DNA of 64,000 nucleotides from Phycisphaerales bacterium (lineage in GTDB: Bacteria > Planctomycetota > Phycisphaerae > Phycisphaerales > UBA1924), in assembly GCA_023382935.1 (NCBI GenBank), contig JAHDXL010000007.1, positions 1-64,000 on the forward strand, written 5' to 3'. Of this stretch, positions 59,532 through 64,000 are shown one piece after another. Every line of letters begins with the position of its first letter. The stretch's first letter is position 1. The position numbers and the translations under genes are program-made. The notes under the pieces are model-generated. The model was not told where the DNA came from, did no database searches, and worked only from the letters and a program-made list of their open reading frames with translations.

Positions 59532-60208
59532 TCAGGCCGCCAGGCTCAGCCCGTTGTTGCCGCTGGCCGTGTTGTTCTGGCTGCTGGTGTTGCCGAGAAG
59601 GACGCTGACGGACGCGGAGGGCGTGCTGCTGCCGCCGGCGCGGCTGGCGATGACGCGGTAACTGATCGCGTCCACGCCGCGCGGCACGGCCACGTCGAGG
59701 AAGGAGCGCTCTTCGCTGACGCCGACGATGCTCCACGGGCCGGTCGAGCCGGTGAGGGAGCGTTCGACGGTGAAGGAGGTTCCGCCGACGCGGCTTCCTT
59801 CCCATTTGACGGTGATCTGCCCGGCGGTGTCGAGCGTGGCGACGAGCGCCGTCGGCGTGGCGGGCGGGCCGAGGGGAGTAGGTGCGGCCGGTGGCGGGAC
59901 GTTGGCGGCCGCGTAGACGGACGGGTTGTTGGTGGTTTCGGCGGAGGCCTTGATGGTCTTGATCAGGTCGCTGCCGTAGTCGCGCAGTTGTCGCTGCTGT
60001 TGTAATAGTTGAGGGTGGCGCTCTTCGAGGCGATGCGGGCCGCGAAGGCCGCGTCCTGGTCATTGCCGGCGTCGTTGAGCATGGTGGCAAGCGTGGTCAT
60101 CTGGGCGGCGGTCAGGCCGATGGCGGTCGGGGTTGCCGCCCACGTGGTGATGCGCGGCTCGAACCACTGGATCATGGCTTGGCGGGAGTTGGGCAGAACC
60201 GGCGGCAT
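59532..60208 (-). pseudogene. planctomycete FN3-domain protein, single-base frameshift
   Basis: AGGAG and ATG 60208 are well spaced; the N-terminus reads MPPVLPNSRQAMIQWFEPRI and TTWAATPTAIGLTAAQMTTL, which is the opening of a family restricted to planctomycetes. After 'KSATLNYYNSSDN' the frame is lost; inserting one C between 59987 and 59986 reads LRDYGSDLIKTIKASAETTN, then 'NPSVYAAANVPPPAAPTPLG' and a fibronectin-III domain ('VKWEGSRVGGTSFTVERSLT') to the stop at 59532. Repaired length is about 225 residues. Whether this is a sequencing error or a true mutation cannot be told. The gap 60209-60704 shows no other gene. Confidence 0.65.
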
Positions 60209-60704
60209 GGGCGGGCTCCTTTGCGTCTTGAGGTTGTTCCACGCGCTCGCCCGGCACGTCACCGGGCCTGTCGATGAGAGTGATCGACGGGGAGATAAGG
60301 GGAATGTAAAGGAACTCGCAAGAAGTGGCAAAGATGCAGTCCGACTCGTTGCTGCACGAGCCTGTGCCACGGACGGTGACTCTCGACGGCCAAGTTCTGT
60401 CAAGCGGCAGTGGCCGCCCCGTCAAGGCCGACCCCCGGCCCCGGAGACGATCGCTGCCGGGCCGCCCTCCGCTTCGCTCCGGTCGGTCCAGCAGCGGGGT
60501 GCGGCAGTGCTCGAACCCTCATAGACTCTGGTACGTCAAACGGGGAAAGGTCACTCGCGGCGACGCGCCTCGGGCCCACGGCCACGCCTGCTTCCACGTC
60601 CGCCATAAAACGCGGACTTTGGCACGCGAAAGGGCGTTCCGCCTGTCGACGCGCCATTTCCGTCACCCGCCTTGCGGGGAGGCGCGAGCCATCTTCAACA
60701 GTTG

Positions 60705-60872
60705 ATCATCGATGCGAAACTACTTTTTATCGAAGATCAGAAGTGCATCGTCGATGCGAAAGAACAGATCATCGATGTCAAAAAGCCCAACATCGACGCG
60801 CCATCATTCGCCATCGATGCGAAACCCTTGCTCACCGATGCGGAAGAGCAGGTCGTCGATGGGAGGGCACTG
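60705..60872. repeat. eight-copy 21-bp tandem repeat encoding heptapeptides
   Basis: Eight units of exactly 21 bp run from 60705 to 60872. In a plus-strand open frame (60672-60887, 71 codons) they read IIDAKLL, FIEDQKC, IVDAKEQ, IIDVKKP, NIDAPSF, AIDAKPL, LTDAEEQ, VVDGRAL. The consensus is x-(I/V)-D-A-K-x-x. The frame has no ribosome binding site, so expression is doubtful, but base-level period and residue-level period agree exactly. It parallels the array at 37777-37881. Confidence 0.8.
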
Positions 60873-60968
60873 GGCATGAGGCAATAGGGATAGAGGAAGA
60901 GGCCTGAGGCATCAGCGATCACGCACTCACACGTAGCCAGATCACCAATCACCAATTCTCAAATCCCC

Positions 60969-61046
60969 CTCCGTGCAACTCCGTGAAACTCCGTGTTGAA
61001 AAAAGAAAAGAGAGGCATCTCTCTGTGCCCCTCTGTGCTCTCTGTG
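60969..61046. repeat. short CTCCGTG/CTCTGTG repeat cluster
   Basis: CTCCGTG at 60969, 60979 and 60989 (10-bp period), then CTCTGTG at 61021, 61031 and 61040. This motif type is scattered through intergenic DNA of planctomycetes and relatives in my recollection. It lies between the array at 60705-60872 and the thrS 3' end. No gene is seen in 60888-61067. Confidence 0.6.
60998..61024 (-). terminator. intrinsic terminator of thrS
   Basis: On the minus strand AGAGAG, loop ATGC, CTCTCT, followed by TTTCTTTTTT. The stem is only A-T/G-C alternating six pairs but the T-tract is long. It lies 44 bases after the thrS stop and overlaps the short repeat cluster. Confidence 0.6.
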
Positions 61047-61067
61047 GTTCAAAACTCCGGCCCAGGC

Positions 61068-63242
61068 TCACTGGAACCGCGCCGCCACCGTGCTCGCCCC
61101 GCGGTTGCGGTATTCCTCCGCCGCGGCCGTCACGAACTCGTCGACCGGCATCGCCCCCAGGTCCTTCTCGATGCCGAAGGCCCGCACCGACACCGTCCCG
61201 CTCTCCGCGTCGCGCGGGCCGACCACCAGCAGGTACGGCACCTTCATCTCCGACCCGTGCTTGATCTTCGCCTGCACGCGCTCGTTGCTTTCATCGAGCG
61301 ATGACCGCAGACCGGCGCTCGCCAGTTTGTACTGCACGCTCCGCGCATAGTCCAGGCTCTTTTCGCTGATCGGCAGCACGCGGATCTGCTCGGGGGACAG
61401 CCACAGCGGGAAGGCGCCGGCGAAATGCTCGATCAGCACGCCGCAGAAACGCTCCATCGAGCCGAACGGCGCGCGGTGGATCACCACCGGCCGGTGCGGC
61501 TTGTTGTCCGGCCCGATATAAGAAAGATCGAACCGGTTGCCCATGTTGTAATCGACCTGCACGGTGCCCAACTGCCACTCGCGACCGATGACGTCCTTGA
61601 CGACGAAATCGATCTTGGGTCCGTAGAACGCGGCCTCGCCCGGCTCGCGGCTGAACGGCACGCCGAGCGACTCGGCCGCCGCGAGGCACGCGGCCTCGGC
61701 CTTGTCCCAACTTTCCTTGCTCCCCGTGTACTTGTTGCTGTCCGGGTCGCGCAGGCCCACGCGCACGCGGTAGTCTGTCATGCCCAAGGTGGCGAAGATG
61801 ATCTTCACCAGCGACAGGCACCCCTGCACTTCCGCCGGGATCTGCTCCTCGGTGCAGAACAGGTGCGCGTCGTCCTGGGTGAAGCCGCGCACGCGGGTCA
61901 TGCCGTTGAGTTCGCCCGACTGCTCCCAGCGGTACACCGTGCCGAACTCGGCCAGTCGCACCGGCATGTCGCGATACGAGTGGGGGCTGCTGGCGAAGAT
62001 TTTCGCGTGATGTGGGCAGTTCATCGGTTTGAGCATGAAGCCCTCGATCAAACGGTCGTCCGGAAGCACGCGGTCGGGAGTAATGGTCTCGGCGCCGGTG
62101 CGCTCGTTGATCCCGGCCGCGAGGCGCGCCGACACGCCTTCGACGCGATGAATCATCTCCGCGCACGAACACCCCTCGGCGCAGAGCGTGTCCAGAGTGT
62201 TGCGCTCGATGATCGGCGCAAACTGCGAATCCTTGTAATACGGGAAGTGCCCGCTGGTCTTGTACAACTCCAGCGAGCCGATGTGCGGCGTGAACACCTC
62301 GGTGTAGCCCTGCTTCTTCAACTCAGCGGCGATGAAGTTCTGCAACTCCTTGCGCACGATCGACCCTCGCGGCGTCCAGAGGATCAGTCCCTGCCCGACC
62401 GTGTCGTCGATGTGGAAAAGCCGCAACTGCTTGCCCAGCACGCGATGATCACGCTTCTTCGCCTCGTCGAGCCGGTGCAGATACTCATCGAGTTCCTTCT
62501 TGCTGAAGAAGGCCGTGCCATAAACCCGCGTGAGCCGATCGCTGGTCTCGTCGCCGTGCCAGTAACTCGAGGCCAGGCTCATGATCTTGAACGCGCCGAT
62601 GCGGCCCGTGCTCGGCACGTGCGGCCCGCGGCACAGGTCTTCCCAGTTCTTCCCCGGCTCGCCCGTGGCGTACCAAGACAGCCTCACCGCGTTGTGTGCG
62701 ACGGCCGTGCCGGCCGTGCTCGCCGCGATGGCGCGTTCGGCGTTGTCGATCTTGTACTTGCTGCCCTCGCTGCGGAGTTTGGCCAGACCCTCGTCGACGG
62801 GCAGTTCATACCGCGTGAAAGGCCGATCCTCCCGGACGATTTTGGCCATCTCGGCCTCGATGGCCTCGAAGTCGCCCTCCTTCAGCGGCCGGTCCTCCGG
62901 AAAAGCGATGTCGTAGTAAAACCCTGTGTCGAGCGGCGGCCCGTACACCAGTTGCGCGCCGGGCACCACGCGCTGGATCGCCTCGGCCATCACGTGGGCC
63001 GTCGAGTGCCGCAGCAGGAACAGCGCGTCCGGGTCCGGCCGTTTGTCCCGCGTCTGCTCGGTCACGATCGACAGCGTGCAGTCGCGGTCGAGCATCGTTG
63101 AAAGATCGGCCAGTTGTCCATCGACCTTGGCGCCCACCGCCGCTTGGGCCAGCCGCGAGCCGATCGACTCGGCCACCGCGAGGGCGGACACGGGCTGGGC
63201 AAACTCCTTCGCGGAACCATCGGGCAGCGTGATGCGGGGCAT
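61068..63242 (-). CDS. thrS: threonyl-tRNA synthetase
   Basis: Charges tRNA-Thr with threonine. 724 residues, slightly longer than most (about 640). Domains in order: TGS (1-65, 'ITLPDGSAKEFAQPVSALAV'); second additional domain with the editing HxxxH 'RHSTAHVMAEAI' and 'YYDIAFPEDRPLKEGDFEAI'; class II core with zinc Cys409 in MNCPHHAKIF, motif 2 'EFGTVYRWEQSGELNG', 'RGFTQDDAHLFCTEEQIPAE' and motif 3 'PFGSMERFCGVLIEHFAGAF'; anticodon-binding domain with 'QIRVLPISEKSLDYARSVQY' at the end. An insertion of about 70 residues lies between the editing and core domains ('TLDTLCAEGCSCAEMIHRVE'). It is preceded by a threonine-rich leader peptide and an attenuator. Confidence 0.96.
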   Translation of the reverse strand: MPRITLPDGSAKEFAQPVSALAVAESIGSRLAQAAVGAKVDGQLADLSTMLDRDCTLSIVTEQTRDKRPDPDALFLLRHSTAHVMAEAIQRVVPGAQLVYGPPLDTGFYYDIAFPEDRPLKEGDFEAIEAEMAKIVREDRPFTRYELPVDEGLAKLRSEGSKYKIDNAERAIAASTAGTAVAHNAVRLSWYATGEPGKNWEDLCRGPHVPSTGRIGAFKIMSLASSYWHGDETSDRLTRVYGTAFFSKKELDEYLHRLDEAKKRDHRVLGKQLRLFHIDDTVGQGLILWTPRGSIVRKELQNFIAAELKKQGYTEVFTPHIGSLELYKTSGHFPYYKDSQFAPIIERNTLDTLCAEGCSCAEMIHRVEGVSARLAAGINERTGAETITPDRVLPDDRLIEGFMLKPMNCPHHAKIFASSPHSYRDMPVRLAEFGTVYRWEQSGELNGMTRVRGFTQDDAHLFCTEEQIPAEVQGCLSLVKIIFATLGMTDYRVRVGLRDPDSNKYTGSKESWDKAEAACLAAAESLGVPFSREPGEAAFYGPKIDFVVKDVIGREWQLGTVQVDYNMGNRFDLSYIGPDNKPHRPVVIHRAPFGSMERFCGVLIEHFAGAFPLWLSPEQIRVLPISEKSLDYARSVQYKLASAGLRSSLDESNERVQAKIKHGSEMKVPYLLVVGPRDAESGTVSVRAFGIEKDLGAMPVDEFVTAAAEEYRNRGASTVAARFQ

Positions 63243-63260
63243 GTCGGTTTCCTTTGGATC

Positions 63261-63290
63261 AAAAAACGCCCGGGCGGGGCCGGGCGTTCG
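63261..63290 (-). terminator. attenuator hairpin before thrS
   Basis: On the minus strand AACGCCCGG and CCGGGCGTT (9 bp) close a short loop (CCCCGC) and run into TTTTTT, ending 18 bases before the thrS ATG. The 5' arm (CCCGGCC) can instead pair with GGCCGG at 63312-63317, right after the leader stop codon. Confidence 0.85.
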
Positions 63291-63318
63291 GTCAGTTACA
63301 CGAGGGCAGAGCCGGCCG

Positions 63319-63378
63319 TCACCCTCGACAAGGCGTCGGAGTCGTCGTGGTGCTGGTCTGGCTCATCACACTCTTCAT
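63319..63378 (-). CDS. threonine-rich leader peptide of thrS
   Basis: A 19-codon frame reads MKSVMSQTSTTTTPTPCRG and stops with TGA at 63319-63321. Six of 19 codons are Thr (two ACC, three ACG, one ACT) clustered at positions 8-15. An internal ATG (codon 5, after GAAGAG) would give a 15-residue version. Downstream pieces are: CGAGGG in the last leader codons pairing with CCCTCG (63301-63306) to form hairpin 1:2; the loop of that hairpin contains GGCCGG (63312-63317), which can pair with CCGGCC (63278-63283) as antiterminator 2:3; and the terminator 3:4. Ribosome stalling at Thr codons would cover CGAGGG and so favour the antiterminator. This is the classical arrangement of Thr-codon attenuation, read directly from the sequence; the regulatory role is inferred. 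Confidence 0.75.
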   Translation of the reverse strand: MKSVMSQTSTTTTPTPCRG

Positions 63379-63385
63379 CGGGCGG

Positions 63386-63391
63386 ATGATA
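63386..63391 (-). promoter_or_regulatory. candidate -10 box of the thrS leader
   Basis: TATCAT, five of six matches to TATAAT, lies eight bases before the first leader ATG on the minus strand. No convincing -35 box was found 17 bases upstream, so this is a weak call. Confidence 0.3.
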
Positions 63392-63394
63392 GCG

Positions 63395-63535
63395 GGGATG
63401 AAGGAGCCGGGCACCGGGAAAGCCCACCAGGAAAAGAGCCCGGGTTCCCCGACCAAATCCGCAGCAACCCGCAACTGTGCGCCCGTGCGGCGCATTCGGG
63501 TCGCTTGACAGGATACTCAGGACTTGGTATCTTGC
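63395..63535 (+). promoter_or_regulatory. cobalamin riboswitch-like element
   Basis: Plus-strand sequence contains AAATCCGCAGCAACCCGCAA then CTGTG (63455-63479), closely resembling the conserved core of Rfam cobalamin riboswitches (..AATCC..GC.G.CCCGC.ACTGT). A later ACAGGATACTCAG (63508-63520) fits the B12 box (CAGGAnAC). GC-rich helical arms are possible around 63401-63450 (GCCGGGC/GCCC). A 6-bp hairpin (CACCCG/CGGGTG at 63535-63550) sits before the downstream start and may be the expression platform. The 5' end is approximate. Family and ligand are inferred from these motifs. Confidence 0.7.
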
Positions 63536-63602
63536 ACCCGTCTTCGGGTGAATTCTCGAAAGAACGCATCATGACGCATCGGGTATTCAACTGCTTGCGG
63601 CG

Positions 63603-63842
63603 TTGGCGCTGGTTGGAACGGCCATTTCAATCGCGGTGGCGCAGGCAGGTGGCCCGCTGATCGCTCCGGCATGCACCTGCCTCAACTCGCAGTGCGGAGG
63701 TGCGAAGATTACTGCCCGTGACTGCCCGTGTTGCTTGAATGGTACCACAGGTGGCTGGTCTTGCGAGGACTGTAACGCTCCGGTCGGCGACTGCTTCAAT
63801 CCGTCCGCACCCTTCACCCGATGCGTCGCGGGCCTGAACTGA
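63603..63842 (+). CDS. small Cys-rich secreted protein, 5' end frameshifted
   Basis: In this frame the sequence reads IQLLAALALVGTAISIAVAQ then AGGPLIAPACTCLNSQCGGA, a signal peptide followed by ten cysteines in about 60 residues (CTC, CPCC, CEDC patterns). No standard start codon with a ribosome binding site is in frame; TTG 63603 is the first usable one. ATG 63571 is in the neighbouring frame and gives THRV, so a single-base deletion near 63584 would join MTHRV to IQLLAAL. The protein has no known family. A riboswitch-like element immediately upstream suggests B12-controlled expression. Metal- or thiol-binding is a guess from the cysteine count. Confidence 0.5.
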   Translation: MALVGTAISIAVAQAGGPLIAPACTCLNSQCGGAKITARDCPCCLNGTTGGWSCEDCNAPVGDCFNPSAPFTRCVAGLN

Positions 63843-63863
63843 ACGCGCGTACGGAGTCCCGGC

Positions 63864-64000
63864 ATGGGCAGGCGCATTGTGGTCGCAGCCGCGCCCGGAG
63901 GGGCCGTGTTGAGCATCGGCGTCGGGCTCTACAGGAGCGGCGTCCTTCGCTCAGCGACTCCCTCGCAAAGAGAGATCCAGGCGCAGGCCGCCGACACACG
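63864..64000 (+). CDS. N-terminal part of an exported or membrane protein
   Basis: ACGGAG seven bases before ATG 63864. The frame runs off the window; visible residues MGRRIVVAAAPGGAVLSIGV and GLYRSGVLRSATPSQREIQA suggest a signal or anchor followed by a polar region. It is 21 bases after the Cys-rich gene and probably in the same riboswitch-controlled unit. Function unknown. Confidence 0.45.
   Translation, partial: MGRRIVVAAAPGGAVLSIGVGLYRSGVLRSATPSQREIQAQAADT

Follow-up and report, generated by a model that had tools for sequence, protein, structure and literature searches.

The stretch of DNA analysed here, 64,000 nucleotides long and referred to below as the window, lies on C7, one of the 35 contigs that make up a 3.72 Mb genome. 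Its minus strand carries thrS (61068-63242), which encodes a threonyl-tRNA synthetase of 724 amino acids (TIGR00418, E = 2.7e-185, 617.5 bits, cut-off 383.65). Upstream of thrS, on the same strand, lies a short open reading frame, MKSVMSQTSTTTTPTPCRG, of 19 codons plus TGA (63319-63378; ATG at 63378, stop codon at 63321-63319), in which codons 8, 10-13 and 15 are threonine codons and codon 5 is a second in-frame ATG. A first-pass annotation, made from the letters of the window, had described a 19-codon leader with six threonine codons and a terminator with a U-tract ending 18 bases ahead of thrS, and we found both as described. The intrinsic terminator (63261-63289) has a 10-bp stem with a 6-nt loop (63289-63264) and a T run that extends to 63261. 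Since only 18 bases separate this T run from the thrS ATG at 63242, there is little room for another promoter between them. The distance from the leader start to the terminator is about 90 nt, two thirds of which are taken up by the reading frame, and a -10-like hexamer, TATCAT (63386-63391), ends 7 nt before the leader ATG.

Two further pairings had been proposed for this region. The segment CGAGGG (63322-63327) can fold with CCCTCG (63301-63306) into a pause-type or protector hairpin, and GGCCGG (63312-63317), located one base past the leader stop codon, can pair with CCGGCC (63278-63283), which overlaps the 5' arm of the terminator, to form a putative antiterminator. The latter pair is present where it had been placed (63317-63312 with 63283-63278). 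The assertion that all three pairings are mutually exclusive was correct for the antiterminator pair and the terminator, which share bases, but CGAGGG/CCCTCG and GGCCGG/CCGGCC share none; GGCCGG/CCGGCC reaches across the loop of the CGAGGG hairpin, so that the conflict between them is steric only.

Folding of the window RNA gave a terminator of -17.9 kcal/mol (z -1.85). A simple terminator scan did not pick it up in the window; the pairing of part of the T run within the stem possibly explains this. When the whole leader was folded (-46, z -2.27), the terminator was present and the CGAGGG hairpin absent, whereas in RNA that begins after the last threonine codon both form (-29.7, z -0.96). When the 3' arm of the terminator was removed from this shorter RNA, GGCCGG settled on CCGGCC (minimum -18.4, centroid -15.8 kcal/mol). 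The fold containing this pair was no more stable than shuffled versions of the window sequence (z 0.41), and the antiterminator duplex of the window likewise did not outperform shuffles (z -0.35, p = 0.32; p = 0.08 by a simpler score). For the window taken alone, the bases fit and shuffles are equally good; the antiterminator signal resides in the group of leaders described below.

Regions upstream of thrS were collected from relatives. Most of the best 80 named records for the window ThrS, with identities between 83% and 57%, carry titles of metagenome assemblies from Phycisphaerales, Phycisphaeraceae or Planctomycetota. With duplicates removed the collection comprised 142, then 216 and then 241 regions, and 25 of the 57 genomes with a ThrS match were taken in from a sample of the phylum. 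Most of the 241 regions extend about 500 nt upstream, so that leaders located farther out are missed. Among these regions we looked for runs in which at least five of 10 codons specify the same residue. Within 300 nt they were found for threonine in 40/142 cases, with arginine following at 12; within 400 nt the corresponding numbers were 52 and 26 of 216. Requiring at least six in 10 codons within 400 nt left threonine at 45/216, with glycine next at 4, and arginine at this threshold fell to 2/142 and 1/216. A short reading frame enriched in the codons of the cognate amino acid thus precedes thrS in many of these genomes.

Of the leaders found with at least five threonines in 10 codons, numbering 52, one (G005) was dropped for having no terminator by script, leaving 51. 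Three more (G199, G147 and G081) were set aside as doubtful, and the remaining 48 were used for the counts of arm exchange, codons, -10 boxes and geometry. Threonine in the 48 leaders is encoded by ACC (164), ACG (163), ACT (38) and ACA (15), and adjacent threonine codons are identical in 99/254 cases, with 97 expected. With synonymous codons mixed and neighbours identical only as often as expected, the threonine run is not a simple repeat.

We then combined the features of the locus into a composite detector, which accepts TAnnnT ending 4-12 nt before an ATG or GTG, a reading frame of 8-32 codons with at least four of one residue in 10 codons, and a terminator after the stop codon. Upstream of thrS it detected threonine leaders in 51/241 regions, leucine and arginine once each, and none of the other 17 residues. 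By family, the threonine matches came from f1 (24/57), f2 (1/12), f3 (1/1), f4 (5/6), f5 (1/8), f6 (4/12) and f11 (3/9), with 12/57 in named loci without family assignment; the detector was silent in 17 other sampled families of the class and in the rest of the phylum (0/25). We designed the detector with the leaders already in view, which makes its rate descriptive; what serves as the test is the contrast with the 19 other residues and with background DNA.

Applied to both strands of the whole window for all 20 residues, with the residue threshold relaxed to 3, the detector found only the thrS leader. In the best 80 named loci, of which 1.19 million bases were read on both strands and 77/80 hold a thrS start, it gave 25 threonine matches, all of them upstream of thrS and on its strand, ending 72 to 1,513 nt before the gene. 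Other residues in these loci yielded arginine 3, proline 2, and alanine, histidine, valine and serine 1 each, of which the alanine, the histidine and one arginine match overlap the threonine leader of locus L050, in other frames or in the same reading frame. In 400 kb of a relative (G130) the detector returned the thrS leader and nine other reading frames (alanine, glycine, leucine, proline, arginine or serine), one of which carries five alanines in a row. Flanking DNA (about 0.6 Mb) and 0.4 Mb of a relative held no further threonine match.

Simpler patterns were less discriminating. A looser pattern matched two places in the whole 3.72 Mb genome, the thrS leader and one other, versus 2 for the reversed control, and is therefore not significant by itself. 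A -10 box followed by an ATG and five ACN codons matched in 86/251 genomes of the order and 103/347 of the class, a weak signal since the reversed control also matches often. The evidence beyond chance is mainly comparative. Among the 54 loci listed from these searches (2 from the genome, 30 from the order and 22 new from the class), the detector fires on 28, and 26 of these lead into thrS; roughly half of the 28 belong to genomes that the first set also contained. One threonine match (L353) is located inside an open frame of 248 residues and looks like a chance occurrence.

In a single genome (G349, 78% complete), a threonine leader, MLSCAMMTTTTTTTTTPSPSGAARG, with a terminator is found directly before the gene for threonine synthase, thrC (locus L330, reverse strand from about 893, G349:C151:2811-2870; TIGR00260, E = 2.1e-91). 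The next gene is the start of a homoserine dehydrogenase, with 81 residues in the locus (NF004976, E = 6.7e-13, below the model cut-off). No single finding supports threonine as the signal better than this leader, which turned up unasked ahead of genes of threonine synthesis. In seven other loci (L033, L042, L044, L050, L052, L054 and L101) the threonine leader ends at least 392 nt before thrS, and an open frame between the two encodes a small CxxC...CxxC protein; the proteins of L052 and L054, the two tested, match DUF6487 (PF20097) weakly, above the cut-off. The leader may head an operon of the small CxxC protein and thrS in these loci. A reasonably probable reading is that several families of the class Phycisphaerae share one lineage-wide kind of leaderless threonine attenuator, serving thrS, CxxC-thrS operons and, at least once, thrC-hom.

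TAnnnT ends 4-12 nt before the in-frame leader ATG in 43/48 leaders, versus 2/156 other ATGs of the same regions, a count that accepted any in-frame ATG ahead of the threonine run and so somewhat favours the leaders; in two further leaders of the 48 (G008 and L038) it precedes a GTG instead. A sigma-70-type promoter scan returned no promoter on the minus strand at the leader of the window, which therefore has no clear -35 box. A -10 box 4-12 nt ahead of an ATG would place the start of the RNA at or beside that ATG, and in the window the position of TATCAT suggests that the transcript starts at the ATG or within a few nucleotides of it. Given this spacing, a leaderless transcript is probable; the first-pass annotation had overlooked the -10 box beside the start codon.

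For the antiterminator, an initial scoring of the 51 leaders confined to a narrow region gave only 8/51 at p<=0.05, with own arms at 15.0 versus 14.5 for swapped ones. The scoring adopted once this result was known took the 5' region from after the last threonine codon and used duplex energies. By this measure the antiterminator duplexes were on average stronger than shuffles (mean z -1.38; 16/51 at p<=0.05; z below zero in 47/51). When arms were exchanged among species in the 48 leaders, own pairs averaged -17.13 versus -15.39 kcal/mol for exchanged pairs, and 0/20,000 permutations were as low, a figure inflated by relatedness among the leaders. Removal of 11 near relatives left 37 non-redundant leaders with -16.76 versus -15.06 and 1/20,000 permutations as low. 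After row and column means were removed, the own pair was better than average in only 33/48 and 25/37 leaders. These numbers indicate that, as a group, the leaders carry an antiterminator that excludes the terminator.

Its position is also characteristic, with the reservation that the arms, being the best duplexes by energy, have selected positions: the arm competing with the terminator starts a median of 8 nt past the last threonine codon in the 48 leaders; in 37/48 this start falls in the interval -10..+3 relative to the base that follows the stop codon, and in 9/48 the arm lies wholly before the stop codon. The two arms change together, as in GGCTGG/CCAGCC (L041), GCCGGGC/GCCCGGC (G003) and CCGGG/CCCGG (G019), and in the f4 member G067 TCGGCTGGTGCG pairs, with a bulge, with CGCACGGCCGA. 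RNAalifold gave no consensus structure on a free MAFFT alignment of 36 of the 48 leaders. The 12 omitted (G008, G034 and L038; G064, G087 and G093 of f5; G077, G085, G094 and G096 of f6; G167 and G193 of f11) were left out since most have the arm inside the reading frame or a long linker, and duplex energies with shuffles and arm permutation replaced consensus folding.

The first hairpin behaved differently from the antiterminator. The window, G001 and G002 all have CGAGGG/CCCTCG in identical form, which leaves no covariation by which to judge it. A pause hairpin as a general part of these leaders was rejected: own arms scored 11.33 versus 11.25 in the 48 leaders, with 8,098/20,000 permutations as high, and widening the 3' region in a second test changed this to 12.62 versus 12.64 (10,340/20,000 as high). 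The hairpin that the first-pass annotation placed directly after the threonine run thus has its bases where claimed, but it is missing from the full-leader fold and gives no signal beyond the genus. The same division holds for the conservation in relatives on which that reading had been made to depend: the threonine run and the terminator/antiterminator pair are kept, with changing sequence, in many Phycisphaerales, and the pause-type hairpin gives no signal outside the genus. In its general form the switch would therefore have two states, with a third helix as an option.

We consider it highly likely that thrS expression is set by a ribosome-mediated (leader-peptide) transcription attenuator responding to the supply of charged Thr-tRNA. 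RNA polymerase would start at or beside the leader ATG and a ribosome would start on the nearly leaderless RNA. If the terminator forms, transcription would end before thrS. When charged Thr-tRNA is short, the ribosome would stall in the threonine run and leave the antiterminator segment free, which would then pair with the 5' arm of the terminator and allow the polymerase to read into thrS. More ThrS would very probably be made under such a shortage, a response that we infer from the conserved arrangement and that is likely because the same arrangement recurs in many relatives. The core of the original proposal, threonine attenuation by a stalled ribosome before thrS, is thus supported by the threonine run and the terminator/antiterminator pair kept in relatives.

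In the genus of the window, the antiterminator segment may additionally be kept inside the loop of CGAGGG/CCCTCG. A stalled ribosome covers about 12 nt of RNA ahead, so that one stalled at the last threonine codon (codon 15) would cover 63333-63322, including CGAGGG, and would thereby release the antiterminator segment. If real in the genus, the CGAGGG hairpin would correspond to the protector hairpin of trp-type leaders.

Several other explanations have to be weighed against this attenuator. The terminator might damp expression constitutively or mark where a small RNA ends, with the threonine run arising by chance or as low-complexity sequence, given that runs of ACC and ACG form easily in GC-rich DNA and that the looser pattern described above matched the genome no more often than its reversed control, which is frequent in the order and class as well. 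This is highly improbable: threonine stands out in the thrS set, its codons are mixed and in frame with a start beside a -10 box, the leader stop codon falls just before the terminator, and the flanking DNA and that of the relative hold no threonine match elsewhere. A leader acting mainly by translational coupling or Rho-dependent termination, not through the intrinsic terminator, would accommodate the short leaders of three f15 genomes (G147, G199 and G205), which have 5 or 6 threonines and lack the usual arm geometry. We regard it as very unlikely in view of the T-tailed hairpin in the window and in the 48 leaders and of the terminator-excluding arm that they display as a group.

Sensing might also bypass the ribosome. 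In many Firmicutes thrS is under the control of a T-box, and such an element or another riboswitch-like RNA could sense uncharged tRNA-Thr or threonine directly. An Rfam search of 60000-64000 at E<=5 gave no match to a T-box (Stem I with specifier loop, antiterminator bulge) or to another riboswitch; its two matches were far below their cut-offs, one of them AgvB over the leader (19.4 bits versus 56). With the short distance between leader start and terminator largely occupied by the reading frame, we give this explanation almost no credence. The ThrS protein of E. coli exerts translational control by binding its own mRNA, and a planctomycete ThrS could do the same, with the leader being secondary. 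The E. coli precedent for a threonyl-tRNA synthetase regulating its own expression is noted by Naville and Gautheret, but autoregulation of this kind would leave the threonine run, its -10 box and the thrC case unexplained, and it appears extremely improbable. The attenuator driven by a stalled ribosome therefore remains our preferred reading.

Its parts have clear counterparts in known systems. The trp and his leaders likewise combine a run of cognate codons, an intrinsic terminator and an exclusive antiterminator, and share the logic by which the antiterminator is blocked once the ribosome reaches the stop codon (PMC1183508). Compared with the classical attenuators (trp, his and thr of enteric bacteria, and pheST), the target here is thrS, the phylum is Planctomycetota, the leader appears to be leaderless, and a pause hairpin is not a general part. 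Aminoacyl-tRNA synthetase genes are themselves documented targets of attenuation, for other amino acids and phyla: leader-peptide attenuators are reported before pheST and, in Streptomyces, before trpS and leuS (PMC1262725), and a histidine leader before hisS copies in bacilli (PMC2965389). For threonine operons in Actinobacteria, PMC1262725 reports no conserved RNA structure upstream.

The closest precedent is a thrL-thrS leader proposed in Streptomyces lividans TK24 (PMC8079986), which also places threonine codons before thrS and is reported there to be transcribed leaderless, on the basis of RNA-seq. Its leader, MKRVRPFLETTPGFVPAR, has only two threonine codons, one hairpin and no uridine run, and as presented there the proposal comes without a comparative test (PMC8079986); it is weaker than the planctomycete leader. 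For planctomycetes, where no thrS case was known to the first-pass annotation, our literature search, in which subscription papers were scarcely covered, found none either, so that this statement stands for the phylum but not for thrS in general, given the S. lividans proposal. A Vibrio fischeri paper that had come up as a candidate turned out to be unrelated. Short leader genes in Planctomycetes are counted in PMC4833913, the main text of which does not contain "thrS" or "threon". Leader-peptide attenuation is thus a known mechanism, and the phylum and the gene are probably new as far as the literature found goes. Two earlier studies may list thrS: one by Lopatovskaya et al. from 2010 (doi 10.1134/S0026893310010164), reportedly a comparative survey of amino-acid and aminoacyl-tRNA operons, and one by Vitreschak et al. 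from 2004.

If the reading is correct, a promoter, a start codon, a sensor and a terminator are packed in about 130 bp, with the ribosome starting at the very 5' end, and the same module serves thrS, CxxC-protein/thrS operons and, at least once, thrC-hom. It would be the first well-supported case of leader-peptide attenuation in Planctomycetota and the first strong case for thrS known to us; this gene, with its strong threonine run, would join the aminoacyl-tRNA synthetase genes that leader peptides control. To our knowledge, the control of translation genes in planctomycetes has hardly been described. The unusual cell plan of planctomycetes has raised the question of whether transcription and translation are coupled. 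Since the switch needs a ribosome close behind RNA polymerase, its conservation would be evidence for coupling in Phycisphaerae, and the locus would offer a small, testable reporter for it.

Two groups of leaders depart from the common form. In the three f15 genomes mentioned above, G147 (L212), G199 (L210) and G205 (L211), the leaders before thrS are very short and lack the usual terminator/antiterminator geometry (the placement of that of G205 before thrS is by position), which possibly points to another mode of control. In f6, the leaders of L337, L339, L340, L341 and L342 share a C-terminal tail after the threonine run that ends in VVC or VAC, perhaps because the antiterminator arm lies inside the reading frame there.
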